Of a stretch of 64,000 bases of DNA, positions 9,649 through 34,176 are shown in pieces. The notes below the pieces were generated by a model that saw nothing but the letters and a program-made list of their open reading frames with translations, did not search any database and was not told the DNA's origin. The stretch covers positions 1-64,000 of the forward strand of contig WHVA01000051.1 of the NCBI GenBank assembly GCA_015179125.1. The letters are read 5' to 3'. The DNA is from Gautieria morchelliformis. Taxonomy: Eukaryota; Basidiomycota; Agaricomycetes; Gomphales; Gomphaceae. Each line of letters starts with the position of its first letter. Positions within the stretch are counted from its first letter, which is position 1. The position numbers and the translations under genes were made by a program.

Positions 9649-9796
9649 TATTAGAAATGTTATCGAAGATAATGTGATTTAATCTCTCAATTGTGAGATA
9701 AATCAAGTGGAATTTGAAGTTAGCAAGAATATCTGCGCACACAATATATGTGTGTGTCTTATGATTTATGCCGACTGGAAGTTTAACTACTACAAG

Positions 9797-9823
9797 CCTG
9801 GCCTGCGCTTCGCTCCGGCCAGG
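9797..9823 (-). other. Helitron-type 3' terminal hairpin
   Basis: CCTGGCC and GGCCAGG enclose a 13-base loop (TGCGCTTCGCTCC). On the minus strand the hairpin is followed by GCTTGT. It is homologous to the hairpin at 15250-15274 next to the Helitron helicase stop codon, with a paired C-G to G-C change in the stem. It most likely marks the 3' end of a Helitron lying to its right on the minus strand. Confidence 0.6.
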
Positions 9824-11040
9824 ATTTCAGGCAAGGACGAAGTGTATATCATAAAATAAGTTTATCATATACAATGTTTTCAGTTAGGTGATTTCTAATG
9901 GAAAGCATGTTGATATCTATTTCTTGAGAGCAGCCCTTAGGCATGTGGCATCATCAGCTGGCAGAAACACAGTCTCCCCCACCATCCTCCACAGCCACAT
10001 ATGCATCTTTCCCACCACCCCCAACGACACACCTTTCCAGTCCTGTCCACCCCCGCCCCTGCTGGCCCGGGTCATCCACATGCGTCACAGGCCTCCCGCA
10101 TGTCTCGACAGGGAGGAAGCCACACGACTTGGTGTCAAAACAGGATTACATTGTCTAAATTTTACCCCATAGTAACCCCCTGGCTGTATGCTGCGAGAAG
10201 TGTGAGAAGTGTCGCGCAGTGAGTAGAGCACGTATTTACAGAAGATTAGCACTATTTAGCTCCATAGGTCATGACTGTTGACTTATGACCGTCTGTTTTG
10301 GCATTGTCTCCGCTGAGACATGTCGTGATTCCATCCACCCATCTATCGTCAAAGTCCCTCAATGCCTGTTTCAACCTAGTCTTATTAGGTCTTCGGAATT
10401 CACGCTTGTGCTTGGAGTCGTTATTGAATTTTGATAACCTGCCACCGGAGCTGACCATCCACCAGTCGGTATCCTGTGCACAACAGACTGGATCACCACC
10501 CTCCCCATTCTCTCATCACGGCCATCATCTGTTCCATCAGAGGGTTGCCACACCAGCAGCTCACGGGACCAGAGCTTGAGATCACTATTAAGAGAAGATT
10601 CGCATCCTACGCCAACCCCAAGCATGCGGAGATATTCTCGGTGAGTGGTGGTGTTGTCCTCTTCAGGAACTTTGCCTGTTCTTTAGTGATTCTATGATAC
10701 ACGATTCATTGTTTTTGTCCTTTTCATATGTGTGCTCCACATGCGGTGTTGGAAACTAGCACCATTCTCACGTAGGCAGTCTGGGTCTGAGTCGGTCCCT
10801 AGCAAGTTGAGATCCAAGTCCACGAGGTCTTTATAGATCGGGCTTGTTGGTGTGTCAAAGTCAGCCATGGATGGCTGCTCAACACTTCTCTGAGGAGAAT
10901 GACCATAAGGGATGGCCATGGAAGCCGGTAAACACACCAGAGTATAAACAGTCTCCTGAGACGCCAACTTCAATGTATCAATGTTGCAAGCACATCATCA
11001 TAATACTCAGGCCGTCCCCTTCCGCGCTCTCTATCCCAGC
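9824..11040. other. Unassigned segment inside the Helitron-linked region
   Basis: Minus-strand open stretches at 10252-10458 and 10692-10973 have a protein-like composition (for example RPNKTRLKQALRDFDDRWVDG). They are short, lie in different frames and belong to no family I know. They may be further captured exon pieces. Confidence 0.3.
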
Positions 11041-11560
11041 CCTGTGCTGAAACAATAGCCAAAGAGTCATCCCTTACACGCAGAGGGAAAACCTTGGTAA
11101 GCAAATGGTGTAAAACACTTGCAAAGCAGAGGAAGAGCCAATAGCCAATGACAGGAGGGCATACGAAGGACTCTGTCAGTTGGCAGCCAATACCATTTGA
11201 TAGACAACATCACATGCCACCAAAACAGATGAAAACATATGCAAACCCTGCTACACCCAATCACAGGAATGCTGAGTAATGCTTGTCTGACACAATAGCC
11301 AATGAAAGGGCAGCAATCCAAAGTCTCACAATGTCACATGGGTGGAAAACACGGTAAACCACTGACAAAGCAATGCAAAGCCACCAAAAGAGAGGAAAAT
11401 GTATGCAAACCCCTGCTACACCCAATCACAGGAATGCTGAGTAATGCTTGTCTGACATGAGAGCCAATCAAAGGGCAACAATTCAATCACATGGGTGGAA
11501 AACACAGTAACACACTGGCAAACAGCAACCCACCTCATTTGTACCCAAAGAATCTTTGAG
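11041..11560. repeat. CCAAT-rich direct repeats, block 1
   Basis: About 180-base units recur here and at 14680-15215. They share words such as GAGGGAAAACCTTGG, CACCCAATCACAGGAATGCTG, AGCCAATGAAAGGGC and CACATGGGTGGAAAACAC. Each unit carries several CCAAT boxes. The two blocks bracket the captured-exon tract and may be Helitron subterminal repeats. Confidence 0.8.
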
Positions 11561-11621
11561 AGAACAATGGATGCCTCTGGATTGCACGAGCGGCCCCCGT
11601 GCGCACCCTTACTCTTCCCCT

Positions 11622-12825
11622 TTACCCACTCAAACCTGACATCCCACCCACCAGCCCCCTGCCTATGGAGATGGAGGGCACGGCACTGGCGGGGCTGGTC
11701 TCCTTCTTGCGGAAGAGCTTGCCGAAGAGTTTCTTTGGGCCGGCGGGCGTGGGCGTGGGTTGGGCGGTGGCGGTAGGGGTGCGTGCGGGTATGGCGGGGG
11801 CGGGATGGGGGGTGCAGGAGTGGTCAGAGGTGAAGGACAGCCGGGAGGAGCCCGGGGACTGCGAGGGGTCTGGCGTGCACGTGTGGTACCCGTCAGGCAC
11901 GTGCGGCGTGAGTGACGTGCGCGAGCCACTCCGGTGGTGCCTGCTGCATCCAGCGCCCCCACACCACCCGCCGCCGTGCGCGCGCCCGGCGTGCTATCCT
12001 TGTCGAACCACACCTGCATGGGCTCAAGCAGCGCGAGGTGCATGCCCTCGAGTGCGCGCTTATGAAAGCAGGCGACGTGCGCATCGGTGCCAGCGTCGAC
12101 GACGGCGTTGGGGCGCACGTTGTGCCTGTTGAGATTGTAGAGCGGGATGATCATGCGGCGGCGGGATGCGGCGGAGGCGGTGGACGCGAAGGACATGACG
12201 GAGCCAGACGCGCCCGCGGAGGACGGGTAGAAGGTGGAGGAGTCGGAGCGGGTTGAGGACGTGCGGCGGAGGGCGTGGTCGGAGTCTGAGGTGGGGGACG
12301 ACGGTGGGTGGGGCGCAGCGTCATGGCCTTGGGTTAGATCTACAGAGAAGCGTGGACCAAAGGTGGCTGTCAATGAGGACGCCGTGCCCGGGCGGTCGCG
12401 CGACGGGTGGGCGGGGACGAGCTGGAGCTGGACGTGGAGCAGGTGGTTCGACTTTGCGGGGGGTGGGCGGACGACGATAAAGGTCTAATCTGATATGTGA
12501 GATCATTGAGTGAAGGCACACAGAAATAAACTTGCCTCCTTGGAAGAGAGCTGTTTTTCTTGTGCTTCTTGTTCGAGTCTTCGGACGGTTTGGGGGCGTC
12601 GTTGAGCACCTGCTGGCCAGGCAAGTCGTCTGCGAGCTTGTCGAGTTTCTCGGCGAGTGCAGATGGCAGGAAGGATGAGAGTGTGGAGAGCATGTGGGTA
12701 TAGTGAGGACCGCCATCGGGGAAGAGGAAAGAGGAGTCAGCCAATGACGCAGGCTCGTGACTGGAAAGGTATACATAAGTGCTGTGACGTCCACCTGAGT
12801 ATAAGGAGCTACGGGGATATACCAA
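11622..12825 (-). pseudogene. Captured fragment of an unnamed basidiomycete protein gene
   Basis: Exon 1 (to about 12538) includes SSFLPSALAEKLDKLADDLPGQQ and a basic linker. An intron with donor GTTTAT and acceptor CAGATTAG follows. Exon 2 reads FIVVRPPPAKSNHLLHVQLQ, then a Ser-rich stretch, then IIPLYNLNRHNV..AVVDAGTDA..FHKRALEG..LALLEPMQVW. A frame change follows, and the C-terminal part (AGPKKLFGKLFRKKE) ends at a stop at 11622. The pattern is that of a conserved fungal protein of unknown function. The 5' end is missing and the frameshift indicates decay. It lies on the same strand as, and just downstream of, the RRP45 fragment. Confidence 0.6.
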
Positions 12826-13090
12826 TGTAATCCCAGAAAAAAACTTGTTGGGTTGGGGATCCGATTAAATGGAGAGAAATATGAATGGATGTGCAATCCC
12901 CGAAAAAAAAAAAGACAGGAAAAAATGAGGGCCGCACCCTATCGTTGCAGGGATCTGTCATACAGGATTACATGGACAGACAGGATTACTCACAATGGTG
13001 TGCGTGGACGAGGATGACAGGACAATACAACGGTGGGCGCAAGTAACCCGATTTATCGGTAGAGGCTATGAATGCATGAGTAATCCCTGA

Positions 13091-13420
13091 AACGGTGACT
13101 TTGTCCCCTACGACCTTAACCTCAGGGCGGCGGAAGTGCTTGAATGCCGTAATACCCACAAAGCACGCACAGTCCAGGATATTCCCTGCATCTGCGAGGA
13201 AGTGGAAAGTCAGCGGGAGATGCCACACCTGTCCGAGCACACACATTCTTTCAGCAATCACTACGTCAAATTAACATGAACAAACGGCGAGGCAGATGTA
13301 CGCACTGTCCGGCAAGGATGCACAGGGACTCCTCGTCCACGGCGTCGCATTGGCTGAGCAATTTATCCAGCAGTTGTGTGGAGAGGACCTCCTCTGAAAG
13401 CCTTTCAGCTTGCTTCAGGG
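13091..13420 (-). pseudogene. RRP45: Captured RRP45 (exosome PH-ring subunit) fragment
   Basis: RRP45/EXOSC9 is a non-catalytic RNase PH-like ring subunit of the RNA exosome. The minus strand reads ERLSEEVL...DKLLSQCDAVDEESLCILAG, then an intron (GTACAT...GACAG), then VWHLPLTFHFLADAGNILD and CACFVGITAFKHFRRPEV, ending at VVGDKVTV. These are hallmark RRP45 segments, in order and with an intron retained, so capture was at DNA level. Both the N-terminal half and the C-terminal part are missing. Immediately upstream the frame continues into CHL1-derived sequence. Confidence 0.8.
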
Positions 13421-13529
13421 AAACAGTATTAGACTTGCATAGTCGTTTTGATGCCGGATCGCGCGACCTAGATATATCAGGAAAAAAAAGGTCAGGAAGA
13501 GAATACGTCGAGGATGGAGTGACTGTACT

Positions 13530-13912
13530 GATGGACTGATTCACACTCTTCATGCAGAGGTTCCCATACAGCTTGGCACCCGCATCCTTTGCACCCGGCA
13601 GACGGGGAAGCTTGAGTTTTTTCTCGAGCTTGGTGATGTAACGCATACGTTCCCTGAGTTCTATCGAGGTGAGGGAGGGAAGGGGAGGCCCACGACGACA
13701 ATGGCCCGCACGAGGGTGTCAGAGAAGTTAATACCTTCAGAGAGTTTAGCGCCAATGACGGCGAGCAAGAGAGCACCACCCTTTCTCGTGGAGGCTGAGG
13801 GCTGGGGTGACTAGGTGAGGAAGGAGATTGTAATATATGAAGGGAGAAGGGGACCTACCACTGATGAGATGGCAAGAGCGTATTGGCAGAGGACATTTTC
13901 GACATCGCTTGG
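13530..13912 (-). pseudogene. CHL1: Captured CHL1/DDX11 helicase fragment
   Basis: CHL1 is an iron-sulfur superfamily 2 DNA helicase for sister-chromatid cohesion. The fragment covers the region before motif V to motif VI: SDVENVLCQYALAIS, an intron (GTAGGTCC...CCCCAG), then [33 protein letters not shown] and ELRERMRYITKLEKKL. It ends at AKLYGNLCMKSVNQSI, where native CHL1 would continue with the Arg-finger motif GRAIRH. That Arg motif is absent. A one-base frameshift lies near 13673. Its 5' side is fused in frame to a HAMP-domain exon. Confidence 0.8.
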
Positions 13913-14278
13913 CCCACCCACGTTGGGAACAGAGGCCTGAGTGCCCAACCGACCTTCCGTCGCAACCTGGCGTGCCACCCTTTAAGACATTCCAAACATT
14001 AGTGACTCCCTTAGACACACCGCTGCAAACCGTACCCACCTAGTAACCTCGTCCACAAATACACTCAAACATTCCGTCATGCCGTTCACAGTTTCCTAGG
14101 CGGTTATAATTCAGCTTGGACCCGACGAAAACTCAGCATTTTCATCAAGTAAAGAGCTTCGCACCTTGAGATCCAGTATGTGGCCCTTCACATCGACCTC
14201 AATCTTCTTGCTCAAGTCACCTTGCGCAACAGATTTGGTCACCTCTGCAATGGAGCGCACTTGATTGGTTAGGTTCAT
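13913..14278 (-). pseudogene. Captured HAMP-repeat (Nik1-type) histidine kinase fragment
   Basis: Group III hybrid histidine kinases sense osmotic stress through tandem HAMP repeats. Three exon pieces are readable: AMNLTNQVRSIAEVTKSVAQ and GDLSKKIEVDVKGHILDLK; then, after an intron (GTGCGAAG...CCTAG), ETVNGMTECLSVFVDEVTR; then, after a second intron (GTGGGTAC...TTAAAG), VARQVATEGRLGTQASVPNVGG. The piece equals a bit more than one HAMP repeat; kinase and receiver domains are absent. The last exon runs without a break into CHL1 sequence at about 13912. The middle exon and second intron recur at 23.57-23.72 kb. Confidence 0.8.
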
Positions 14279-14640
14279 GGCCTACATATAATGTGGGAAT
14301 CCAAGTGATCAACGAAGTGCTACAAAGTGAGATGCACTGGCACGATATCAGAGAGATCCGCTTAGAAGAAACTTACCTTATCTCGAACTCAGCGTGCGGC
14401 GGTAAACACCTGCTGATACTGGCAGACGGTGGCCCTGTCATCGTAGTCGCTCACGCGATGCAGGAGACCCAGGGAGCAAGGAGAAATACCCAGCCAGACG
14501 TTCGTCGCATCTAAGAACGGAGCGCAATGGAAGACGTGAAATAGGAGCGGACATAAAGGGCGGGCTTAGAGAAGCAAAACAGACGCACCAAACGTAATCA
14601 CGGGAGAGAGGAAACCACGGATATCGATAAGTAAATCGTA
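14279..14640 (-). other. Possible further captured exon, unidentified
   Basis: Upstream of the HAMP piece on the minus strand a donor (AAG|GTAAGTTTC near 14380) closes an open stretch containing SDYDDRATVCQYQQVFTAA. The family is not recognised. If real, it is the first exon fragment of the captured series. Confidence 0.3.
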
Positions 14641-14679
14641 GCACACGTCACTGACTGCTGATCGATGATGGTAGTGAGC

Positions 14680-15215
14680 CCGTGCACGCAGAGGGAAAAC
14701 CTTGGCAAGCAAATGGTGCAACACACACGCAAGTGGTGATTGATGATGGTAGTGAGCCCATGCACACAGAGGGAAAACCTTGGCAAGCAAATGCAACACA
14801 CACGCAAAGCAGAGGAAGAGCCAATAGCCAATCACAGGAGGGCACACAAAGGACAGTGTCAGTTCTCAGCCAATAACATTAGACAGGCAACATCACATGC
14901 CACCAAAACAGATGAAAACATATGCAAACCCCTGCTACACCCAATCACAGGAAGGCTGAGTAACACTTGTCTGACACGATAGCCAATGAAAGGCCAACAA
15001 TCCAACGTCTCACAATGTCACATGGGTGGAAAACACGGTAAACCACTGGCAAAGCAATCCAATGCCATCAAAACATAGGAAAACATATGCAAACCTCTGC
15101 GACACCCAATCACACGAATGCTGGGTAATGCTTGTCTGACATGATAGCCAATGAAAGGGCTACAATCCAATGTCTCACAATGTCACATGGGAAAACACTG
15201 GCAAAGCAATGCAAA
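14680..15215. repeat. CCAAT-rich direct repeats, block 2
   Basis: Same repeat family as 11041-11560, with the local direct repeat GAGGGAAAACCTTGGCAAGC at 14690 and 14769. CCAAT occurs singly or as AGCCAATAGCCAATC pairs several times. The block lies between the captured exons and the Helitron 3' hairpin. Confidence 0.8.
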
Positions 15216-15249
15216 CGAAATGGTGTCGTATGCTTAATAGAAGACAAGC

Positions 15250-15274
15250 CTCGCCTACGCTTCGCTTCGGCGAG
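15250..15274 (-). other. Helitron 3' terminal hairpin
   Basis: CTCGCC and GGCGAG flank a 13-base loop (TACGCTTCGCTTC), only about 20 bases beyond the helicase stop codon on the minus strand, then GGCTTGT. A hairpin close to the 3' end is typical of Helitrons. The terminal CTRR motif is not clear here (CTTG is read instead), so the exact end is uncertain. Confidence 0.65.
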
Positions 15275-15295
15275 TCTTTAGCGGATGTGGGAGAG

Positions 15296-18200
15296 TTAGA
15301 GGACAATTTCATTGTAGACGATGTTTTGTGTCTGTAGTTCATGTAAAGGAAAACGTACTCGAATGTCCAGTCTATGTCGAACCCGTGATAAAGCAGTGTA
15401 AAGTTGCCCATGGCTAAATACGGGGGTTGTCAGGTCTATGGCAACACGATCCAGGGTAAGACCTTGACAGCTGTTGAAAGTGGTTGCATATGCGGGACAT
15501 AAAGGAAATTGCTTGCGAAGAAGAGTGTGGCCAGTGGAGGGCAATAAAGAAGAGAAGGTGATACGGGAAGGAGGATGTTCTCTTTATCAGCACAATTAAG
15601 TCCAGCGTGGACACGGAGGGAGTTAACAGTGATGAGCTTTGTTCCCAATTGAGTGATGACTAATCTGCAGTTTTTGACCAAGCCATGGCCAATTGACAAA
15701 TTACACATCAAGCGGTAAATTCCTCCAAGTCTGATAGATAGCATATGAGAAGGCAGTCCAGGTGGTATTTGGTGGGCTACATAGTCAAGGATGCCTTGAG
15801 GTGAGAGGAGGTTAACATCATCAGTCTCCTTGATAGAGTCTGCTGCAGTGTAGATTTTTTCCAAAGTGTTCAGCCTGTGAAGGCATATGGAGTTATACAT
15901 GTCACATTGAGAGTTCGTTGGTGCAAGAATTGAACGGGTCAGGCATTGAGTGGGGTCTGACAAAACCTCAGGTGGAAATACAAAGTCAACAGCATCTGTA
16001 GTAGATATGATACGTTGAATCATGTCCAAATAAACATTGCCAGAAGGGCCGTTGCCAATGTCATCAATAGCAGAGGCAAATCCAGGGTCCATTGCGTGAC
16101 GCACTGGAGTAGTCAAGGAACGGACTTGGAACTCATTCCAGAGGGGAGAGCTGTGAATGGATGCATCAATGACATCCATTTTGGAACCTTTTCGCACAAC
16201 AGGACATGTTTGATGGAAGTCACCTAAGAGGATGATAATCTTTCCTCCAAATGGCATGTCATTCTGCATGATGCGTTGTAGAGTTTCATTGACACACGCG
16301 AGAACTGCACGATTAGCCATAGGAGCTTCATCCCAGATAATGATAGAGGCTTCTTTGAGTAGTTGTCCTCGTGGGTCATCAGGGTCAATAGGCGATAGTA
16401 AGAACTCAGATGCATCATTGACAGGTACCTGCAACCAAATGTGTAAGTCCTCAAAGCAGTGTAATGGAATCAAAATTATATACTCTAAAAGCAGCGTGCG
16501 TGGTTCTACCTCCAGGGTAAACTTGTGCAGCAAATGCAGAAGTTGCAGTGGGCAGAACAATCTCACGTAGGTGACGACGTGAGTCGCAGATGGTGTTTGT
16601 AAGAAATGTTTTGCCACGGCCAGCTGGTCCATCAACACATAATTGCAGTGGAGATTTAGAGTTAGCCGCTTGTTCAATTTCAGAAAAGATTGCTTCTTGT
16701 TCATCCGTGAAAGATGCATGACATATTTGACTCCGATGATGCAGCAAAGGGATGTTTGCTGACCATTGCCGTAACTCATGTTCAATTTCTGTTCCACGTA
16801 GATGTGGTTCAGGTAATCCAAAGTCCGACAATTGACGTCCATGTTCATCCAAGCTTTTTGATATTTCTGTCAGAGCAGCTGTCTGTGCTAAGTCAACATT
16901 ACCACCTTGTTGGTGGAGGAAGTCTTGTGATAATTCATGTCCGAATGAGTGCCATGTGTTAATTGGTAGAGGGCAACAGTCATTAGTAAGGAGATGGACA
17001 AATAATTGGCGAATTTGCCGTGGAGTGTTTAGAGTTTGAATGGCCTCAGAGATGCATGAGTCTCCTTCTGATTTATCAGCAAATAAACCGTGATTTAGAG
17101 CTGATTCTTGAAATGTAGGCAGTAAGTGGCCCTGGATGGTACGCAAGTCATCAAAGGATATAGCTGGGAGGTGTAATAAAAGGGAGCGGATATAGAAACG
17201 TTCTCCTTCAGATGGCCAGATGGGTTGTAGTCTTGTGATATGGGGCTTGTTTGGTTTACGAAGAATGACATGCATCATAGGTTGGCCGAGGACGTTGGGT
17301 TTTTCCATGTAGTACCGGGAGTTGTTTTGATTATCCCAGTTGAATTTTTGAAGACGAAAAAGGCGATAGTAGTCTGTGTAAGTGAGGTTGGCAAAACTTT
17401 GTTCAACATTGTTGTCGTCATGAAAAGACACATAGGGACGTGAAAAATAATGGTCAAGCTTGGACATGGAGCTGGAAGGTTGTGAGGATCGATCGTATTG
17501 ATGATAACATGTTGAATCAGGGGTGTGTATGGGAAGAGCTGTAACAGCAGGTTCTTTGCTTGTTATGTGAAATCCCAAAATTCTCCATGCAGCTTCCCCT
17601 GCTGACAAATAACGCGCATCCCAAAACTCAGCAATTTCATCAACTGATGAATCAGAGGAGTCTCTCAAATGTACCCATGTGCGATCAGGACCTACATCTG
17701 TTTAGAAAAGCTTGAAAGAATACACTAGGAACTTACCTTTGTGTATGTATTTAAAAATATATTGAAATAAATGACCTGTACTTGCAGCTTCAAAGTTGAT
17801 GTGGCATCGATATTTCCGGATTAATGGAAGGCAATGAGGAACCACCATCTCATCTCCAGGCATATGACGTCGATACAATACCCAGCCTTCATCATCAAAG
17901 GTTGTATTTTCCTGAAGTTGGCATGGATAGTTGAACCTGCAAGTGCGAAGTCCATTATTTTCACGCTGACAGTAACGTGATGCAGGCCGGTTGCGAGGAG
18001 GATGATGGTGGAGCATATGAGTTCTAATGAGAGCAGCATCTTCATCATTAGAGGGAATTTCTGCGGAAATGACTTTGTTGATGTCATCAGGTGTGATGCA
18101 CTCGGATTGAAATTTGATGAGAATGTGACAATGGGGTAACCCGCGTTTTTGAAACTCAATGCAGTATATCAAATATAATTGCCGACCTGCATTTGGAAAC

Positions 18201-19470
18201 ATTGATGATAATGTTGACAGAAAATGACCCAATTTCCGCTTGAATACTCGACAAACTATTAAAGGTGCATCTTCAAATCCTTGCCCAGGACGCAACTGCT
18301 GGGATATTTCAGGCCATTGAGGATTGCATGTCATAGTGATAAAGAATGTAGGCGGTCCATATGTCGCAGCTAGGGCAAGAGCATCTGCAATCTGTTCGGA
18401 GGCCCATTTTCTTGAACCAAGAAAAGATGCAGGTAAGTAGATGTTATTAGTAGATGAACCCCGATCTTGAGAGGCTTTTTGTTGATTGTGACGGATGTAG
18501 TTCAGTCTACATTCTAGGTCGCGAGTGAACATATCGACAATATATTCATTGCATAGACGGCCAAAGAGTTGAAACCGAGGTTCACGAAGGAGTGTGCCAC
18601 GGTAGTACCACATCTGTGTAGAGACACTCTCTGTGTCAGCATCAGATGCAGAAACACCCAAGCCTTCATTTACACCCCAGCCTAGAGTGCCATGTGGGAA
18701 AAACAGGGGATATACCAATGGTTCCCAGAGATGGCTAATGGTGGGGATAGATTGATTATGTCCATCGGTCTTGGCAACTGTGAGAGACCGTGAATGGACA
18801 TCAGATTGGGTAGTGTTGCGAAAAGACATAATAGCAGCAATCTAAACGGCTGTAAGTATAAGTATGACGTGTGTCTTAGAAGCTATCACCTCATTTGAAG
18901 GCGATGATTCTTTGAGGATGATGGATGCTTCAGGATAAATAGATGGTTGAATGGACGACAGTTGGCGCAATGCATGAACAAACGGATTAACCCGTAGCAA
19001 TGCATCATGCATTGCAATCGTCCAGACGCATGGTAACGAATGAAACCAATTTTGATGAGGGGCTTGAGAGGCTAGAAAGCCATCGTATAATAACCATTGT
19101 ATAGCAGAGTTCTGATGTTTTGGTCGTAGGCGGTGATAAAGTCGACCTTGAACAGAGAAAAAACCAGGAGGTCCATGTAGTCCAGGGAAGTCTGATGTAG
19201 ATTCCAAAGAAGCAAAAGAGTAGATCAAGTTTAAAACACGCGATGAAGATGAAATGTTGGGGTCATGGGTGAATACATTGAACTCTTCAGGCAACGGAGG
19301 AAGTGGCTTAATGTCATGCAGTCGTTTTCCTCGATCCCCACAACAAAATCCTGCTCGTTCACCTGTCAAAAGGACTAAGTGACAATAAGGGCATTCATGT
19401 ATCCGTCCTCCACGGTTTTGCCCCCATACACAACTGGGTTGATGACATATTGCCGATAGCCCATGTGATT
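15296..19470 (-). CDS. Helitron Rep/helicase transposase (one frameshift)
   Basis: Rolling-circle transposase with a cysteine-rich N-terminus ([19 protein letters not shown], about 19390-19340), a HUH Rep domain ([13 protein letters not shown] near 18130), two catalytic tyrosines (YIFKYIHK near 17750) and a Pif1-like helicase. The helicase shows Walker A GPAGRGKT near 16620, Walker B WDEAPM near 16330 and [11 protein letters not shown] near 15385. Three introns fit the reading frame: 18842-18889, 17698-17736 and 16429-16483. About 1,350 residues result. The only clear damage is a one-base loss near 15570 before the last 80 codons. The start is uncertain; the cysteine region opens near 19470 and could extend further. 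Confidence 0.88.
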
Positions 19471-19499
19471 GTAGAAGAGAAAGCCATGTTATTGTAGAT

Positions 19500-21100
19500 A
19501 GGAGTTGGATGTGACCAGATTAAAAGATTGTTTGTTGTAGTTATGGACAATCACCCCGTGTTCATCGGGATCTGTGAAGAATAGATGTAAACGTGTAATG
19601 AATCTCCCCTTGTCGAATAAGAACACGTGAAGCTGTATGAAAAGGTCAGGTAAACCTCATTGGCTGAAAGAAGACGTACATGAATGGGTCCTCTCCGTTG
19701 GAATTCCGCGTATATTTCAAAGGTCATGAAGATGTTAAGATTGCGAACTGCTAATGGGAACACGATCATTATATAAAATCTCGACACGGCCCATGTCGAT
19801 TACTCATCTAAGAATGCCGTACAGGCGAATGGCTCAGCGGACCATCTGAATGATAAGGTTCATCAACTAAAACTTGCCAGAGATCGCGCTCCTATCTTGG
19901 GATGAGACAACGTCGTCACTCCGATAAAGTCTGAGGGTAAGGATGTGATGTCTTAAAGAAAGGGTTGCAGTTTATACGGTGTTGTCTCAGAATTAGTAAC
20001 CGGACATGGCCCCATGTAATCTTCGCGTCCTATGGGAGAAGTTATTGGTTTTACGCGTCATCGCCCTCTTTCTAACCCAAGCCGGTCCATCCGGCGCAGC
20101 AAATTAGAAAACCCCTGCATACCTATGTGAGGTCTAGCAGAGGCTTGGATTTAAACCTGCTCTGTCTTGGGAAGAAAGAACCGAAATGTATAGAACGGTG
20201 TCAGGTCTGAACGTTTTGTGATTTTCGATTTCATGTCAAGCAACCTGTCTGTAAGGCACACAGATGACGACGCCAGCTTACCTGCTACTGTGAGACCTGG
20301 CAGAGCTTCAGCCATTGCGCCGAGTCAATGTTTAGGGTGAAATGTTACAGTCCGGCGCAGCTACCTCATGCTGTGGGAAGGCCCATGTCCTGTTTTGGGG
20401 CCTGCCTAAAAAGAAGCTGTGACAGTCGAGCCCATGCAGTGGTTCACGCGCGAGGCAAGGTGGTTCACACAGACGATATTGGAGGCATCCAGAGCAACTT
20501 TAACATACAGTTTGTACTTGGACCTCGAAGCCTGGGCTACATATCCACCAGGAAGGAATTGTCGTCTCCATCACAGCTATGTAACAGAAGAGACGGACGC
20601 TCTGAGACAGCTTCTTGCCGTGCCTAGGTATCAGCCACGGTGACCAGATGCAGTATATTTTCCTGGTTAGCTGGCCATTAATTTCCTAGGCGCGCAGTGT
20701 TCGAATAGTAATTCATCCGTAGGCAAGGGATCTGCATGGCTGTTTGTTCTGTGCTCGCATCCAAGACATACCCACAACTGATACCTGCACGGGATGCCCG
20801 GTAGGGTGAGAGCCAGACGACACATGGTTTCTGCGTCGATGTGTTCTTGAAATGAGTGATGCTTCCTGATTTCCTTATGGTATTTACTAATGGTTTTCCT
20901 AGTCTGATGTCACCTGTAACCATCAGTCAATGCACTGAGGTGTAGGTGTCATCCAGGCTATCACATCCTCCTGGTCAGTTCTTTCCACATAAATCTGCTG
21001 AGAATACACACGCATGCCATCCTCAAGAAGTATCACAGACAATAATAAATTTACAAATCTGCAGAGAATACACATGGATGTCAAAAATACATGTAAACAC
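19500..21100. other. Helitron 5' flank and unassigned sequence
   Basis: No recognised gene. The 5' end of the Helitron (TC after A on the minus strand) must lie here or further right, but cannot be fixed without another copy. Overlapping plus-strand open stretches around 20.33-20.64 kb have no recognised motif. Confidence 0.4.
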
Positions 21101-21123
21101 TAAGACAAAATATGTTAAGGCGT

Positions 21124-21834
21124 CTACATCGCACGACGCTTACCACTCCTAGTCATCAAATTGGAGGAATCATCAGCCACAGATGCCATAGTTTCCTTTG
21201 AGGGGCTGTACGTGGCAGGCACGCTGGTGTCATCCCTCTGATTGACATCATCTGCCCTATATTCATCAACAGGTGCAGCTGCGAATTTCCTGCGACGGCG
21301 ACTGCCTTTATCACCCCTGTCTGGACCACCTCCCCCCCTCCCAGCAATTGTTCCAGACCCAAGGCTCAAAGCAACATGATCCACAACAATGGACAGGTTC
21401 CCCTGCTCATTAACATCCTTCAGCAACCCATACACATAAATCACAGTGTTTATGTTAGGAGCTGGGGTGCGACTCCAACAAACAGAGTTGCCATGATAAA
21501 TACAACTGGTCACCCAAAAGTGAACACTGACACCACAAAAAAAAAACAGATAAGACACGAACCCCAACATGAACGACTTTGTGCCATCTCGAACATAGTC
21601 AGAGACAGCCAAGTTAAAAAAGCGCGTCTTAGAATTTGCTCCATACTCCGCATTATTGATCACAGCCCCCACCCCCCAAATGGCCACAGACGTGTCATCT
21701 AGAATGTTATCTTCATAATTGTCGGCCTTTTGATCTCCAGGATATGGTACAATAGATAACACATCCATCAAAACCTTGGAAGATGGGGGGGCGAAGATGC
21801 GGCCGACAACACGGGCAACAGTGTTATCTGGCAA
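21124..21834 (-). CDS. Repeat-associated OB-fold-like hypothetical protein
   Basis: Open for 236 codons. Segments such as LSIVPYPGD, EDNILDDTSVAIWGVGAV, RFFNLAVSDYVRDGTKS and INTVIYVYGLLKDVN alternate beta-strand-like and loop regions. A glycine-rich linker and a basic tail (GSRRRRKFAAAP) follow. The layout resembles a family of hypothetical proteins common in repeat-rich basidiomycete genomes and recalls OB-fold single-strand DNA-binding proteins. A 36-base intron (GTTCGTGT...GTCAG, about 21530) would remove a hydrophobic stretch and is multiple-of-three, so the frame is open either way. Near a Helitron, an accessory single-strand binding role is possible but unproven. Confidence 0.45.
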   Translation of the reverse strand: MPDNTVARVVGRIFAPPSSKVLMDVLSIVPYPGDQKADNYEDNILDDTSVAIWGVGAVINNAEYGANSKTRFFNLAVSDYVRDGTKSFMLGFVSYLFFFCGVSVHFWVTSCIYHGNSVCWSRTPAPNINTVIYVYGLLKDVNEQGNLSIVVDHVALSLGSGTIAGRGGGGPDRGDKGSRRRRKFAAAPVDEYRADDVNQRDDTSVPATYSPSKETMASVADDSSNLMTRSGKRRAM

Positions 21835-22448
21835 CAGACATTCCCAGGAGGACTATAGACACGGAGGTCGATGGGGATTACCACATCCTCATGGCAGGTC
21901 TGCAAGACAGTATTATAATGACAGTAGTAAGTAAGGAGACACCGTCTTACGACGGCCCCCAGTAAGACATAAGTTGGCAGGTAGATTGATGGTAGACATA
22001 TGTATAGTACAAAAACTATGGCCTGGACTGTGAACTTATACTCCAGAAATCACGTGATCATGTCCCATATCATGCACCAACCCAGAACACCCAAAACACG
22101 GATCACATTTGTAAGTATGTTTCAGATAGGCACATCCATTCTACAACCATGAACCTTGGTTGGATTTGTAATGACTTAAATTCTAATGACATGTCTCATC
22201 TGTAAACATTTCCAATGACGACACAACATGAGACAACCGAAAGACAGCGACTTTGCGTCAACTAAACAATATAAATACTTATCCAGAACCCCTACTACCA
22301 CTCAATCAGTTTCACATCAACCACTCACATACCCGGGCGCACAACTAAAGCAACAGAGAAAAGGGGCAGGAGTAGAAATGTACGACAACTTAACTCCACA
22401 CGTGAGAACGGCTAACGTCTATTTCAGACCAGTCGCCCTGAAGTCTCA

Positions 22449-22679
22449 ATGGAGACCGCAGTGGACCAACTGATCGAAGTCTTCGAGACTACGAACCCTC
22501 CTTACCATCTTCGCGGCCTCTCTGCTAGAGACCGCACGTTGCCGTTGCTGAGAGACATTGAAATCCTGGAGTACGAAGTGACGACGCTTCCTGTGCCTGT
22601 GGAAGCTTTAACGCATATCGCCAATCATATCCAATGCATGAGAGGCCACTTACTGGAAATAGTCAACAATGATGGATGA
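22449..22679 (+). CDS. Small unrecognised ORF divergent from the OB-fold-like gene
   Basis: 76 codons with a regular amphipathic, Leu-rich composition (ALTHIANHIQCMRGHLLEIV at the end). A TATAAATA word lies at about 22270 and a possible short intron (GTGAGAAC...TTTCAG) lies just upstream of the ATG. It starts about 600 bases from the divergent gene at 21834. No family recognised. Confidence 0.35.
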   Translation: METAVDQLIEVFETTNPPYHLRGLSARDRTLPLLRDIEILEYEVTTLPVPVEALTHIANHIQCMRGHLLEIVNNDG

Positions 22680-22799
22680 AGGTAACGGTGATGGGTACAC
22701 AATAGTGAAAGCGAATTGAAGCAGGAGACGAAGCAGTTCACCATTCACCCAACTACGTGTATTAATAGCAGACTACATTGTTTTTTGCCTCCCTACTCG

Positions 22800-23240
22800 T
22801 CGAACGATGCATAACCAAGACGATCACCTCTGCAGCGTAGGGTAAGTATAGGACGGTGTGTGAGAGAGAGAACACACCCCACGCATATGGGTGCCAGCGC
22901 TGGAAAACCTGCCTGGCGATAATACGGAGGCAAGTGTGGACGTGCTCACGGGGGACTGTAGGGGCAGACATGCGTGAGCGGGTGCGCTGGGTGTGTACCT
23001 CTCCGGATATGCGGTGTGCAGCCTCGACGTTCCCCTCGACCATCCAGTCCACGACGAGCGGCCCCAGGGTGAGGGCCAAATCGAGGACGGACGTACATGC
23101 GGTGGAGGTCGGCGAGGGTGTGGGGGATGCGCAGCTGGGCAGAGATGGGAGCGCGCGGCTTGGTGCGGCGAGGAGGAGACGGGGCACGTTTGACGGGGGC
23201 GGAGGGTGACGTGGAGCGGGTGCGTGCATTGGAGGACATA
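22800..23240 (-). pseudogene. Unrecognised captured coding fragment
   Basis: GC-rich minus-strand segment starting at an ATG at 23239 (MSSNARTRSTSPSAPVKRAP). A frame change near 23100 leads into LDLALTLGPLVVDWMVEGNVE. The composition and broken frame resemble the other captured fragments. It lies 3' of the HAMP-TPR chimera on the same strand. Family unknown. Confidence 0.35.
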
Positions 23241-23457
23241 ATAGAATGTCAAAGGATGAAAGGAGCGGAGATAAAAGCCCGGGTACTGCATCCAGGGATG
23301 GATGCATAGAGAAGAGAAGCGATGGGGACTGTATTGGCTGCATCACGCGGCCACGTTGCGAAACAGAGTAGCTGCGTTGCAGTAGCGAGTGTGCTGCCGA
23401 GGAATATCATGATCACAGCCCCCACGCAACTGATGAACATGACATGCGCAATTGCGA

Positions 23458-23720
23458 TGTGGTTGAGGGAGGAGGATCGTTCAGGATGCAGTGCAGGTCG
23501 CAGCTGGAGAGCTTCTCGATCCAATGAAATCGCCTCCTCCAGGTCTTCGCGTGGACCGTACTTCATGCCACCCTTTAAGACATTCCAAACATTAGGGTCT
23601 CCCTTAGACACACCGCAGCAAACCGTACGCACCTAGTAACCTCGTCCACAAATACACCCCAACTTTCGGTGATGCTGTTCACAGTTTCGTAGGTGTTATA
23701 ATTCAGCTTTCATGCACATG
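23458..23720 (-). pseudogene. HAMP-kinase exon joined to a TPR-protein fragment
   Basis: On the minus strand an exon ETVNSITESWGVFVDEVTR and the following intron (GTGCGTAC...TTAAAG) match the HAMP fragment at 13.97-14.12 kb closely. The next exon begins GG, as there, but then reads GPREDLEEAISLDREALQLR and PALHPERSSSLNHIA, which is one unit of the TPR repeats found in large basidiomycete TPR proteins. The switch point is at about 23575. Both a HAMP part and a TPR part are far from complete, so this is a captured chimera rather than a gene. Confidence 0.7.
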
Positions 23721-23950
23721 TCGTGTGTTGACGGATAGTCTAGAATCTGTTAGATAGTCGTGTTCTTCGTGTTCACCGTTCTTCAAGTCGTGCTGTGCGT
23801 GTTGACATGTCCCGTTGTATGCGGTCATTGCCGTTTATTGGTAACGTTCGTGCTCTGCCCAGTCCCCGTCAGCTACCCTCGCCCTCGCCCTGGCCAGACT
23901 CACCTGGCTGGTCGTGGAAGCCTCACAGGTCAAGGAGTGCTTAGCAGCAG

Positions 23951-24508
23951 CTAAAACTGTAAGAAAACAGGTTGTTCGATATATTCAGGTGAGCGTTTTC
24001 CCCAGCATATTGTCGTGCTGAGATTTATCGCATTCCTTACCTTGTAGAAGATGAAGAGCTTATTGGAACTCTTCTCAAGTCCAATGAGCGCATCATTCAA
24101 GCGTTGAGTAGTGTACTCTTGGGAAAGAGGAGGGGCACAGGAGGCTGATGAAAGAGGAGGGCGGGTAGGCGCAGACAGGGGAAGGGCACCAGAAGCAAAA
24201 ATTATGTCATCCCAAAGGATGAAAAAGGTGGTCGACCTCCCGCCGTCCTCCCACGATTTGCACCAAGCCTTTTTCACTACCTCTGAACCGTCCCGATGCA
24301 GCCAAGTCAAATAGTCGCGGTCTGCTACATGGCGGCTGTGTATCATGCGCAGCCTCTCTGTAGCACACCGTGTCTGTTCGACTTGGCTGTGTTGGGCCGG
24401 TTCTGAGACGGAGGCTCTAAAATGGGAGGAGCCGTTATGTTCGTACAGAAGATACCCATGTTCACTCTGATGGGTCGACTTGCAGGTAGTTGTTACACGA
24501 CGATACAA
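23951..24508 (-). CDS. Unrecognised ORF, 185 codons
   Basis: Open minus-strand frame with a protein-like middle (WLHRDGSEVVKKAWCKSW, then FFILWDDIIFASG, then LNDALIGLEKSSNKLFIFYK). A good intron (GTAAGG...TTACAG, about 24040-23961) follows FIFYK, so the last 30 codons of the open frame are probably intronic. It may be another captured piece. Family unknown. Confidence 0.35.
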   Translation of the reverse strand: MYRRVTTTCKSTHQSEHGYLLYEHNGSSHFRASVSEPAQHSQVEQTRCATERLRMIHSRHVADRDYLTWLHRDGSEVVKKAWCKSWEDGGRSTTFFILWDDIIFASGALPLSAPTRPPLSSASCAPPLSQEYTTQRLNDALIGLEKSSNKLFIFYKVRNAINLSTTICWGKRSPEYIEQPVFLQF

Positions 24509-24753
24509 TAGTGGCGCTGAAAAAAAAAAATATAAACTTGATCATGACAGCGGATGTCTATGCTTCTATGCTTGCCCTCCGCCCTCGCTTTCTGTTTTTG
24601 TCTTGTGGATTTTATGTCTGACCTGGACCGAGGACTCATATAAACCGTTCTCCTAATGATTATTTATTCTCTCTTATTTTTCGTATACTGGGCGACACAT
24701 ATGTCTAGATCCAGTGCACCAGTTCGTAAGGACAACCCCTGCACATTCTGACA

Positions 24754-24987
24754 TTGGTCTTCAAAGATCTCCACTGTTGTATTATTCGGTGGCTTCCACT
24801 CACAAAGCTCACATTTGAAGCTGTCGATTCAAAAGTCTTCCAATGGTACATCCAGAATCACGGGGTCGACGTGAACCGATTTATCGACCACTCCCAAGCG
24901 ATGCAGCTTGCGTGTCTTGGAGCTGAAATTTGTGCAAATGAACGAAACATTTTAACTTCCTGGACTGAAAGGGTAAATGAGCGTTGA
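24754..24987 (+). other. Short unrecognised ORF
   Basis: 78 codons, protein-like (LTFEAVDSKVFQWYIQNHG). A CATATAAACC box and an alternative ATG with a stop after 16 codons lie just upstream near 24640-24745. Likely a gene relic. No family recognised. Confidence 0.3.
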
Positions 24988-26463
24988 GCAGCATGAATTA
25001 TGGCGAGGTATACCACGCTAGCAGCAGCGTTAAGTGGTCGCTGAAAGCAAAAATATAAACACTACTCACTACGTCTGACCTGAAATAAATCGACACAATT
25101 TAGAGTTAGCTACCTCTTCCTGCTCGCGCTGCACGGATTTGGGTCTACGTGAACGAGACCCTCTTGTGAACTGACCGCAATTAAAGTCCCTGACTGAGAA
25201 TAAATCTGTACTAAAGAAGGGAGTGCATTAAACGGGGGGAGATAACTGGGGAATGGTTATGAACCCACTCGCACAAATGCAACCGCCCCCTTACCATAGA
25301 CACTGACTGGCGATGTCATCTGTACGTGAAAGCTGCGAGAGGCGAAAGGAGAAACACAAAGAAGATACCACAATGAGTAGCCACTCAGAGCAGTCAACAT
25401 CCTTGCTATATTGGAAAATAGAGTGATCTAAAGAGCTTGACATGGTTAGTCGACCGCTTACCTCCCTCTTCCTGGGTCACGTGAGAGAGAGACAAACGGT
25501 GAAGGCTGGTCATGAGTCAACGTTGGCAATAACGATGAACCAAGAGCTCGGCTAAAATGAAGAAGCTACAGTGAGACAAATGGTGACGATGCACGGAAAG
25601 GTTTCACAGCAAAAATGATGAAGCGACAGCGAGACAAATGGACCTGTAGCTCAAAAAGGTTTAATGACAAAAAAGAAGAACAAAGAGTGAGCCGATGCTC
25701 CCAAAAAAACAGAGAAAGCCGAGACAAACAGGGGCAAAGGAGCACAAACTTTCACATGTTGTATGCTTAATAGAAGAGTAATAGATACTGTGGAGTGAAC
25801 TGGGTTGTGATTTCACTACTGGTTTATGGTACAAGAAGCTAGGTATTTATCAGTTGCTGGTAGCACTTGGCGGTCAAGAAGATTGTGGGATAGTACTAAG
25901 AGAAAGGTGGAATGGGGGGAGCGGCGCATAGTCGTCGATAGGGGTGTCAACGTGCGTTGTACAAGTATGGAGTGTAAAATAGGATAAGGGAACGGTCTTT
26001 TGGAGGTGGATAGGGGACGTGGTCTGGCTATGGGCAGGGTCGGCTCGATGTGTCGCGTCCCTTGATTGGGTCACGTGATTATGGGGTGCGCGCCATCTGG
26101 GTTGGGCTCAGCGCTCTTGGAAAGGGTTTCTGGGGTGTTCTAGACTACGGTAACATGCATTGTGTGTTCCTGTGATGTCGGAACAGTCGGGGACTGGAAT
26201 TGGGTTGGGTTGAGTGGGCATGTGATGGTCCGGCGATCTCGGGCACGAGTCGTCATAGTGTATATGCGTTAGGGGGGATATCGACGTGTTGGTTCTGATG
26301 TGGGTTTGTGTTGTTATGATTAATGTGTCGATGTCATATTTCCTCGATACTTCAACAGGGCGGGGGGCAGAGACGGGGCTTGGCGCATGCTCAAAGGTGG
26401 GCACGCCTGCGACGACACCGATATGTTGGCAGTAAGGCAGAAGACACCAGGAACAGCACCCCT
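24988..26463. other. No gene recognised
   Basis: A 16-base word GTATGCTTAATAGAAG at 25761-25776 also occurs at 15228-15243 beside the Helitron 3' hairpin. Otherwise no coding family, RNA gene or repeat is identified. Confidence 0.4.
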
Positions 26464-28401: not shown

Positions 28402-31400
28402 TCAGCCACGTGTCCTTCGCATATGTCCATCACACGTCCCTGTCTGGCAGAGTGAACTGTTGTTTGAGCTAAGAGGGAGGGGGGACACATCACCGAAGGT
28501 GCCTTTCAGGTGTTCTGTAACGGCCACGAACCTCAGCAGTGCTAGCATGGAGTCTGGCTTCCCCAGCAGTTCTCTAATGGATGCAGCTTTTCGCCCCAGT
28601 TTCCTCCTTAAACCGTGTCTCGCATGCTTATGCGCCTGGCACTCGAAGAGGTAGTGGTGGGTGGACTCGTCGGCCCTGGAGCAGGCCGGGCACAGCGGGG
28701 AGGGTGCGCGCTTGATCCTATAAAGGTGCCTGTTGAGTGGTGCATGTCCCATCCTCAGCTGCACTCTGCGCCCTCGTGAGGATCACTGTGTCACTGATGT
28801 AGGTCCGTGATGGCAGCCTGTTGTCAATTTTGCGGAGCCGTGCGTATCGAGGGGACTGCTGCCATTGCGTCCTCCAGCTCCTTCTCATCTCCACCCTGAA
28901 TACTTGCCGTGCAGCAGACAGGCTGTGCGGTAGCTGGTCAGCTTCTAGAAGGGGCGGGAGGTCACTCATCTGGCTGCTATCTCCCGCTGCTGCCTTTGTA
29001 GCCTCGCCATCTGCTTCTTCATTGCCCCTGACCTCGTCATGGCCCGAGATCCAGGATATCATCAGGTTTACCTGCCGCCTCCGGGACGGCACCGCTACCC
29101 TGCAGGCAAGGTCGTGGATGTCTCCTACAATGTACTGCACTGGCCTCGGCCTGAGGTGTGTGATGGCCTGTATGACCCCCTGGTTGTTGAGGAGGACAGC
29201 CGCCCTCTTGATTTGTTTCTCACACTGCAATAGTTCCAGCCCCAGGACGACTCCGATCGCTTCTGCTTCATACGTGGTATGCTCGTCCAGTGTCCCCTGA
29301 TGGTATCTCAGGCCCGCTACCTTTCTCTCGCCCCTGTATAGCACCGCCGCCGCGCCAGCTCCACCTTCCATTCTGGAGCCGCCTGTGAACACCTTGGCGT
29401 CTGCTGTGTCGGCAGCCTCGTCTTCCTTGGACTCCTCCCTCGAGTCCGCTATGTTGGTTGAGTATGGCTGCAGCGTGTCGGGCGCATGTGTGTAAGGCAC
29501 GATTTCTTCATACCTGTCCGGCTCGAGGTTGAAGGTGTGGGCCAGCACGTGAAGAGGGGATGGATGCCTCTTTACCAGCCGGCGGGCACACGTGCATAAC
29601 GGTCGGTGGAGGGGGTGAGTTTTGGGGAGAGCCGCCATGGGGCTGATCACCTTGAAGCAGACTCCAAGGAGAAGCAGCTCTATGGGGAGCACGGTGGCAT
29701 GGACCTCGAGGACGTCACTGGCTGTCCTCCACATTGCCCCAGTGATGGCTAGGGTGGCCAGCCGCTGTACTGACGTCAGTCTATGTACCACTCCCACTGA
29801 CCCCAATGCCCTCTTCTTCCCCTCCTTCCTCTGGACCGGTGTGTACCATACATCTGCTGCATAGGTAAACTTAGGGATAGCGACCATGCAATATAGCTGC
29901 CTCGTGTATGTCGCTCGGACTCCTGTTGAGGGCTTAGTGAGTCTGCGAGCCAAAAGAGTCCACTTTACCGCCTTCGCTACAGCCTTCTCCCCTTGCACAT
30001 TCCATCTCAGCTCCTCGTCCAAGAACACCCCCAGGAATTTATGTTCCATTGAGGGCGGGATGGCCACACCCTCATACATGAAGTCCGGCCTCGGTTCGTG
30101 CATGGTTTTGCCTGGCCTAGTGGGGTCCGGGACTCTGTGGCGCGAGAAGCCTATCATCGCGAACTTTGATTTTTCGAACCTGGACTGGTGAGTTTGGGTC
30201 CACTCCTTTGCCCCCCCATCTTTGAGCAGCATTTCCCTGATGCTCTCGTGCGCCTCCTCATATGTGTCTCCCTCTACGTACAAGTTAGCATCGTCCACAT
30301 ATGCCACTGCAGCTTGTCCCTTCCCCATGGCTACCTCCACCAAGTCTGCGTTGTAGAAGAGGTAGAGAATCATGGACAGGGGGTCACCCTGTCCTATACC
30401 ATTGTCTATAGCCACCCAACCTGAAAGGAAGTCGTCGAACTTTAGTCTGGTGCACCTGCCGGCCAGCATTTGGTCGACGAATTGCACGTACTCCTCTGGA
30501 ATCCTCCGCTTCCTCATGTTGTGCAGCAGGCGGTCAGTGACGGCATTCGGGAATGCACCCTCAATGTCTAAAAAGAGCATTACGGCCACCTTCTTTCTTC
30601 TCCATGCCCCTTTTATCTTGTTGACTATCAGGTGCAGGGAGTCAGTTGTAGTCCTGCCGGGCCTCCCCCCAAGTGAGCAGCTGGCAGGAGATGGTACCGT
30701 TCTGCCAAGAACATCATGTCTTCTGCCACTATCGCAGTGAGGAGCTTCCCGATCGTGTTGAGGAGAGCTATGGGGTGGTATGATTTCGGTACGTCATAGG
30801 TTCCTTGCCTGGCTTCCGCAGCACAACGGTGATCCAGGATTTCCAACTGTCGTTGAACGTTTTTAGTGCGAACGTGGCCTGGAAGATGCAGAGGAGATAC
30901 TCAGCGAGTAGGTCATCCGTCTCCTTCAAGACCACATTGGGTATTCCGTCGTCGCCCGGGGCCTTCTGAGGCTTCAGCTTGCCCAGCTGGCGCCTGAGTT
31001 GTCCCTCGTGCAGCTGGAAACGGTGGTTGACTCGCTTTGGGTATTTCAAGGCTGGCGGCACCTGGGAATCAGATGGTTTGGGCGGGAAGAAAGCTGCGGC
31101 GAGGGCCTCACTCTTGGCCTCGTGGGTTTCAGCTGCGCGGGCGGTGCCGTCAGGGCCAGTCGTGTGCAGTGTGGGGATCCTCGATCTGCCGCCATCTGTG
31201 GCTGGGTTGGCCAGATATTTGTTCGCCGTCCAGAGCAGCCCGTCGTTGAGATCCTCTAGGTAATCTGCCCAGTGCTGTGCTTTGGCCCTACTGATAGCCC
31301 AGCTGTAGTTTTCGGTGATTTCCCTGTGCTCCTCGTGTGAGGGGTGGTCAGCAACTGCACGGTGGATGTAGGACAAGTGGTTCAGCCTGTTTTTTGCTTT

Positions 31401-32408
31401 TTTCAACTCCATGAGCTCCCTACTCCACCACCTGCGAGAGTGCGGCACTGGCCTCGATAGCGGGACCACTTCGTCGATAGTATCCTGCATGGCAACTGTC
31501 AGTGCACTGACCATCTCGTTGTACTCATCTAAGGTCCTTAGCTCCCTTGCCTCCGGCACATCCTCCAGTTTTTCCGCCAGCTGGTCTCTGAATTGGTCCC
31601 AGTCCACCATTCTGAAGTTGCGGAACGGCTCCGGCCTCTTGACCTCCACATCAATATCTAGAGTGGTGAGTATGGGGACGTGGTCTGTACCCGGCCCCCT
31701 CCTGTCTGGGACTGTGTCGCATGTAACTATGGACTCAGCGATGTTGTCCATGCAGAAGACGTTATCAACCCTCATCCAGTTCTTGGTGGACATTGGCTGC
31801 AGGTTAAGAAGACGCTTGGGCAAGGTCATTACCATGTTGTAGTCTGCCAGGAGTGAGATCAGCTCCTCTGCAGCCCTGGTCGCCTCCGCCGTGAACAGAT
31901 GGTGGTTGCGCTCCTCATCCCACATAGGGTGGTGCCGGTTGAAGTCGCCGCACCACATCATCGAGTCCGTTTCATGCTGAATGATGTTGTGCCGTTCGGA
32001 GCCAATGTATTCATCCAGGGCTCGCAGAGTTGCAGAGTGTTCACAATCGTTGTAGACATTGAATACCGTGATCTTGCCCCTTGGGTGCCTCAGCTGTACC
32101 ACAGTCACATCATTCGTTCCTCGTATTGATATCTGTGACCAGGTGTTAGTGTCTAGTGCGGCGTTTACCAAGATTACAGAGCGCTTCATAGCTGTGTCAG
32201 TTAAATGGGAAGTAGGATATAGCACGTGCCAATGGTGATTTGCTTTGGTGTTGCCTAGCGCGTCGATGTATGGTTCCTGCAGAAGTATGAGATCCCAGTC
32301 CTTGTGGGCTGTCGAATTGATGAGATCATATTGAGCTTTGTCGGATTTGTTTAGGTTTTGTTGGTATACTCTCAGTCTCGCTGGTGTCGGTTCTATTGTA
32401 TAAGGCAT
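28402..32408 (-). pseudogene. LINE ORF2: endonuclease, reverse transcriptase, RNase H
   Basis: An APE-type endonuclease starts at 32408 (VYQQNLNKSD, LLQEPYID, WCGDFNRHH, GTDHVPI). The reverse transcriptase core follows with APGDDGIPN, FLDIEGAFPNAV and the catalytic AYVDDAN near 30300. RNase H is readable, but its first catalytic motif is FTGGSR rather than the usual TDGS, and LLNNQ stands where DNQ is expected. The C-terminal zinc-finger CPACSRADESTHHYLFEC comes last. Frame breaks near 30810, 30660 and 28740 separate the pieces, so no full protein can be made. Confidence 0.9.
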
Positions 32409-32653
32409 CAGTCACTACCTATAGGGGGTGGCCCTCGGTCTCCGTCTGTGTCGCCCCACCGGGCTATGGGACCCAGGCTCAGCCTGTTAGAGGAGGTGGC
32501 CGGGCTCTCGCGTGGCTGCAGGGCTGTGTGTCGCGGCTGTCTGTCTGCTATTTGGTCTGGTGTCCGCCATTCGTAGGGCAGCCTCGTCTGCCGGTGCCTT
32601 CCCTTATGGTGGGTGACCTTCTCCCAGCCTCCATTGTATTGTGGTGCAGGTGG

Positions 32654-34164: not shown

Positions 34165-34176
34165 GGGTTATGGGCC
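34165..34176 (+). other. Copia primer-binding site (initiator tRNA half)
   Basis: GGGTTATGGGCC follows the LTR immediately. It matches the complement of the anticodon stem-loop of initiator tRNA-Met (expected GGGTTATGAGCC), the half-tRNA primer type known for copia and Ty5. The ATG in it (34170) is also the first codon of the open gag frame. Confidence 0.7.

Follow-up and report, generated by a model that had tools for sequence, protein, structure and literature searches.

Fragments of four host genes as probable cargo of a non-autonomous Helitron in the basidiomycete Gautieria morchelliformis

The locus and its setting

The window, that is, the whole stretch of DNA that was analysed, comprises bases 1-64000 of contig C571 in a Gautieria morchelliformis assembly of 122 Mb and 1113 contigs. 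It is dense in mobile elements. Frames of a copia-type gag, a DDE_Tnp_4 transposase and a chromodomain retroelement polyprotein are found at 34122-37006 and 50836-53676, and LINE-like frames (endonuclease and reverse transcriptase) at 28718-32411. On the minus strand, from 14289 to 11583, fragments of four host genes follow one another in the order kinase, helicase, RRP45 and unnamed protein, with sharp borders between the blocks:

13914-14289, minus: fragment of a HAMP-repeat (group III type) histidine kinase; two inferred introns; PDB match; likely parent C561 (L075)
13424-13911, minus: fragment of a Rad3-family helicase, possibly CHL1-like; introns kept; 1-base deletion relative to the likely parent C489 (L005)
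13092-13424, minus: fragment of the exosome subunit RRP45; one inferred intron; likely parent C555 (L072)
12822-13091, minus: Y, a multi-copy non-coding repeat between the RRP45 and unnamed-gene pieces, also present in other elements of the B family (see below), e.g. C501, C226 and C651
11583-12821, minus: fragment of an unnamed conserved basidiomycete protein; relative to the likely parent C182 (L002), about 318 bp are lacking at 11663

An earlier note, made from the sequence of this DNA, had described these four pieces on one strand and in this order. PDB searches for the first three and parental DNA matches for all four bear this out. The span of 11600-14640 that it gave to the tract needs correction: the pieces are there, but at 14289-13914, 13911-13424, 13424-13092 and 12821-11583, while 13091-12822 is the repeat Y and 14640-14290 is Helitron backbone. 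In what follows, DNA searches of the genome mostly scored the best 40 candidates (the best 40 of 149 in the first search with the tract), and the copy counts are lower bounds; for the RRP45 piece, all 39 of 39 candidates were scored.

The four fragments and their likely parents

The first piece, proposed earlier as part of a HAMP-repeat kinase, is well supported as such. Its spliced peptide matches a HAMP histidine kinase with E=8.3e-43 in a search of solved structures (PDB), and its DNA is 93.35% identical to C561 over 376 bp, ungapped, where the parent continues into further HAMP repeats, HisKA and HATPase_c. The second piece matches C489 at 94.07% over 489 bp. Its spliced peptide falls among Rad3-family helicases in the PDB, with FANCJ best (9.1e-8) and CHL1 at 8.8e-4, and the parental frame gives the same order (FANCJ 2.5e-9, CHL1 7.2e-4). 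In C489, the frames on either side cover consecutive stretches of the rad3 profile between positions 416 and 704, and Helicase_C_2 is matched as well; NCBIfam places these frames in the rad3 family only, under the cut-off, and the helicase frame of the window alone is also under the cut-off in Pfam (E=0.005). The piece is thus of the Rad3 family, but the CHL1 name of the earlier note does not follow from score, since FANCJ is ahead. The label goes back to motifs of DDX11/CHL1; the piece may be called CHL1-like, and score separates CHL1 from FANCJ for neither the piece nor its parent.

The RRP45 assignment held. The spliced peptide gives E=1.4e-14 in the PDB, where the top seven matches are all RRP45 or its human-named equivalent. 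At the DNA level, the piece is 79.6% identical over 343 bp to C555, whose N-terminal frame matches Rrp45 (5e-6) and is followed by RNase_PH and RNase_PH_C. An origin of this piece in another species was weighed against an old capture; the differences by codon position (12/6/17, plus 14 in the intron) do not tell the two apart.

The fourth piece, described at first only as an unnamed conserved protein, is indeed conserved, with 13 homologs, the named ones being in Lanmaoa, Tulasnella, Ceratobasidium and Grifola, and it has no Pfam match. It is 87.4% identical to C182 over 1193 bp and 88.9% over a further 81 bp. Its part at 11976-12703 has partial copies in at least about 31 places (73-87% identity, among the best 40 of 149 candidates), so C182 may not be the exact parent. 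Two of these partial copies, in C484 and C799, agree to 98.9% over 1.7 kb, flanks included, and the C799 copy lies near a copia-like gag frame, as judged by eye. The unnamed-gene piece may have been spread by another mobile element.

The search for parental genes in the same genome, which the earlier note had suggested, therefore gave a likely parent for each piece, at C561, C489, C555 and C182. The first three continue into further exons of the right family, and C182 is a likely parent by DNA identity. Among 100 dinucleotide shuffles of 11583-14289, none matched the four parental loci at E<=1e-3. The aligned non-exon bases that have been kept number 139 in the kinase, 150 in the helicase and 80 in the RRP45 piece. 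Judging from the frames, introns are thus retained in three of the four pieces, and not in all four as first proposed, which argues that the pieces were captured from DNA.

Helitron B as the probable carrier of the fragments

The fragments lie within a larger unit, which is referred to here as Helitron B and very probably is a non-autonomous member of a Helitron family that has autonomous relatives. Its parts in the window are the following:

9793-15244, minus: probable non-autonomous Helitron B, 5452 of its 5456 bp; 5′ end at 15244, 3′ CTTG end at 9793
14734-15244, minus: X, the 5′ region common to the B family, recurring in many places
14290-14733, minus: stretch of B backbone following X; a donor-like GTAAGT lies at 14376; in common with C1 and C348 as far as 14405, and with further loci
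11065-11532, minus: X′, the 5′ region a second time but 5′-truncated, most similar to the copy in C793 (93.7%)
10488-10771, minus: 280-bp part of the backbone that runs the other way in siblings (in 7 of the 7 listed with it)
9793-10487, minus: 3′ region of the B family, from the downstream-flank search
9793-9823, minus: 3′ hairpin and CTTG end of B, the hairpin directly before the end

The complete unit is 5.46 kb long and consists of 9793-15244 plus four bases at 25782-25785. An upstream-flank search found X beginning exactly at the 15244 border in many genomic places. Two further copies, at C1 and C348, have both ends in common with B and the same limits to the base; in the blocks that they share, identity between the two is about 94%. 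Both flanks of the C1 copy are a relative (65-75% identity) of the LINE-like element at 28718-32411 of the window. Copies with shared ends, which the earlier note had proposed looking for, do therefore exist, but the full set of four pieces was found only once in the genome searches, mostly among the best 40 candidates; movement of the unit after all captures can thus at most be inferred.

The ends recur throughout the genome. Allowing 3 mismatches at most, the patterns for the 5′ end (28 bases) and the 3′ end (25 bases) have 38 and 95 matches, respectively, the 95 including the related A type; the reversed patterns have 0. At least 17 of the 38 5′ ends pair with a 3′ end on the same strand, giving elements of 1.3-18.6 kb, of which five enclose a Rep match; the pairing used 43 of the 95 3′ ends (most A-type ends being left out) and 19 entries from 112 Rep rows, so that 17 is a lower bound and 21 5′ ends were left unpaired with the 3′ ends entered. 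The Rep inside elements with B ends at C637, C239, C659, C293 and C171 is 74-82% identical to that of the neighbouring Helitron A, and no Rep match was listed within 9793-15244. Since its ends are shared with Rep-bearing elements and it has no Rep of its own, B is assigned to the non-autonomous members of the family; presumably it would be mobilised in trans by the RepHel of its autonomous relatives.

The five bases before the 25 listed 5′ ends are ATCTA in 16, ATTAG in seven, TTTAG in one and GCTTG in one, the last being that of the window itself. B-type elements thus start with TC (TCTA) in 16/25 or TT (TTAG) in 8/25, and in the window the TCTA has been split off by A. An A precedes 23 of the 24 B-type 5′ ends other than that of the window, and a T follows CTTG in all nine listed B ends; an empty site of B's own was looked for and none was found. 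The family has TC or TT at the 5′ end and CTTG at the 3′ end, a departure from strict TC...CTRR, CTTG being a variant reported for HELPO2. The hairpin before the 3′ end folds as DNA at -9.9 kcal/mol (z -2.1), modestly better than shuffled sequences, 8 of 200 of which were as good. A second Helitron-like hairpin had been noted downstream of the tract; it is present, but it is the 3′ end of B itself.

X is closest to the C1 copy (95.5%), while X′ is closest to the C793 copy. Because their nearest copies differ, B was probably put together from two or more B elements, as a composite. A reading of the two regions (11065-11532 and 14734-15244) as LTR-like direct repeats flanking the tract was rejected, since each is a copy of the 5′ region of B, X′ a truncated one.

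Helitron A, nested within B

Directly upstream of the tract lies a second element:

15245-25781, minus: Helitron A, autonomous type, 10,537 bp, inserted between A and T inside the 5′ end of B
15436-19519, minus: RepHel reading frames of A (Helitron_like_N and PIF1; Pfam E=4.4e-38 and 2.3e-27)
15245-15275, minus: 3′ hairpin and CTTG end of A
23566-23709, minus: kinase fragment inside A, followed by a repeat seen in autonomous B copies
25782-25785, minus: first four bases (TCTA) of B, severed by the insertion of A; host A at 25786

A carries both parts of a canonical Helitron RepHel, Helitron_like_N and PIF1, and relatives with B ends were checked for the Rep part. Since A adjoins the tract on the same strand with an exact joint, and end bypass has been shown for Helraiser (PMC4778049), A might have taken up the pieces by 3′ read-through into downstream genes, so that A and the tract would be one 16-kb element. 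Nevertheless, this is highly improbable. Among six listed copies of the 3′ part of A, four stop exactly at 15244 and two extend by just 3 and 16 bases. Moreover, the sequence after A is B's own 5′ end, and A is absent upstream of it in 24/24 other B-type ends seen. A matches begin near 25783, and the A 5′ ends seen read A followed by TTACTCTTCTATTAAG in 7/7, which corresponds to a TT start. When 25781-15245 is removed, CCACAGTATCTA is joined to TCTTCTATTAAGCATACGACACC, giving the commonest B 5′ end: the joined flanks read A followed by TCTATCTTCTATTAAG, the form that precedes 16/25 listed 5′ ends. This empty-site match largely refutes read-through from A. It shows that A entered B at an A-T step, four bases in from the 5′ end, and that A is the younger of the two insertions; the nesting also explains the exceptional GCTTG before the B end of the window. 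The Helitron helicase reported upstream is therefore real and adjoining, but the copy boundaries and the empty site assign it to another Helitron than the capturing unit.

The same evidence bears on an artefact of assembly, in which unrelated contig ends would have been joined. In its favour, the assembly consists of 1113 contigs, and the inner joints turned up a single time in the genome searches. However, both B ends occur as a unit in siblings, the insertion of A follows the A-T rule to the base, and the pieces differ from their parents by 6-20%, so they are not misplaced parental reads. Such an artefact is extremely unlikely. With considerable confidence, the tract can thus be regarded as cargo of a non-autonomous rolling-circle transposon, Helitron B, and the multi-gene capture at the DNA level by a Helitron that had been proposed is sustained by likely parents in the same genome, retained introns, the ends shared with siblings and the empty site of the nested A.

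History of capture

The kinase piece is common to five other copies: it lies beside X in C326, C239 and C293; it also occurs in C401 and in C180, the latter with a B-like Rep (79-80%). In an alignment of seven kinase sequences, the six captured copies agree on a base other than that of the parent at five sites, and at three more all of them except C401 do so. These shared bases support a single capture of the kinase piece; several other sites fit no simple tree. The kinase fragment inside A is 87% identical to the parent, 91% to the B piece and 92-94% to C326 and C239. Since the Rep of A and B types differ by about 20%, exchange of cargo between the two types appears more likely than a capture of the kinase before they split. 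In C326 (L003, 2138-3283) and C239 (L004, 2138-3261), a tandem array with a spacing of about 134 bp follows the kinase piece, and beyond it the sequence resumes with a later portion of that kinase gene, as if the array had replaced the middle of a longer capture.

The helicase piece was found in this element only, among the best 40 of 149 candidates, and so was the RRP45 piece among the 39 of 39 scored. Their divergence from the parents, about 6% and 20%, respectively, suggests different capture ages. Instead of the cargo of B, siblings C1 and C348 carry a piece of an aspartyl protease, plus a short part of the unnamed gene. The protease fragment was recognized in 1 of 10 frames by Pfam (E=5.6e-4, bits equal to the cut-off) and matches C583 at 89%, with no PDB match; nothing else in this cargo was named by Pfam in the 10 frames. 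The protease region is also present in C180 and C130.

Capture thus looks stepwise. The kinase piece, common to several copies, would have been taken up first by B or its ancestors, and the helicase, RRP45 and unnamed gene would have been added later, over several rounds, the order among these three following from divergence only. X′ would be a sign that at least two B elements went into the composite, and later a complete autonomous-type A was inserted at an A-T step, four bases inside the B 5′ end, as the empty site shows.

The joints offer some indication of how the pieces were put together. Comparison with both parents covers two joints: that of kinase and helicase contains a two-base filler matching neither parent, and at that of helicase and RRP45 no more than one base is shared. 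One base is likewise shared at the deletion within the unnamed gene. No inner hairpin was found in B at up to 6 mismatches. Under end bypass, as shown for Helraiser (PMC4778049), old 3′ ends would remain inside the element unless lost. Because the pieces are internal, B shows no inner relic of a 3′ hairpin, and the two joints compared have a two-base filler and one shared base, we infer that template switching or filler repair is to be favoured over 3′-end bypass.

Coding state of the tract

The HAMP and helicase pieces join in frame, and a frame of 136 amino acids with GT-AG introns is possible, which ends after the 1-base deletion. A chimeric pre-mRNA across this HAMP-helicase frame is possible. 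This join, together with the GTAAGT donor upstream in the backbone, speaks for the tract as an expressed and selected new gene, a HAMP-helicase fusion, instead of passive cargo. Yet the helicase part is broken after the deletion, and the changes relative to the parents at codon positions 1/2/3 (9/2/5 in the helicase, 5/2/10 in the kinase) do not make constraint clearly visible; a selected gene is thus very unlikely. A wider proposal is that the family acts as a maize-like serial gene collector in a basidiomycete, in which A and B, with Rep about 80% alike, would swap cargo such as the kinase piece, and the backbone splice donor and in-frame HAMP-helicase joint would yield chimeric transcripts able to become new genes. 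This is unlikely. The passive cargo of Helitron B remains the preferred reading of the tract.

Comparison with known Helitrons

HELPO2 of Pleurotus ostreatus, as described in PMC4289320, resembles the present family by features: it is from a basidiomycete, inserts between A and T, and has a subterminal hairpin, a CTTG 3′ end and Rep and PIF1 helicase domains. It differs in that it is reported there to hold RepHel only, whereas the present element carries fragments of host genes whose likely parents lie in its own genome. HELPO1 of the same species is like B in holding one to four gene-like sequences per element, but these are described in that text as cap genes without copies outside Helitrons, of unknown or viral-like origin (PMC4289320). 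Castanera et al. report no P. ostreatus gene fragments in intact P. ostreatus Helitrons (PMC4289320). Helitron-N1_AN of Aspergillus nidulans is a non-autonomous fungal Helitron with a host gene fragment, but of one gene and in an ascomycete (as cited in PMC4289320).

Maize Helitrons, according to PMC3288121, share with B several gene fragments per element, stepwise gain, nesting and multiple termini; they end in CTAG, in contrast to the CTTG end and fungal host here. In Fusarium, the FoHeli elements described in PMC5148889 include composites with several 5′ termini and a nested case, also in a fungus, although their termini are Helitron2-like and the 27 putative captures are not thought important there. 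A search of the open-licence literature by title and start of the abstract turned up no Helitron of a basidiomycete that carries pieces of several host genes whose parents have been identified, and a report elsewhere is possible; the Helitron passages of two fungal papers (PMC10799480 and PMC4905642) name no such element. The collecting of multiple fragments by Helitrons seems to be well known in maize and little described in fungi. Here, one element with four host-gene pieces is found together with likely parents and siblings at different stages of capture within a single assembly, and the mode and rate of capture thereby become measurable in a fungus.
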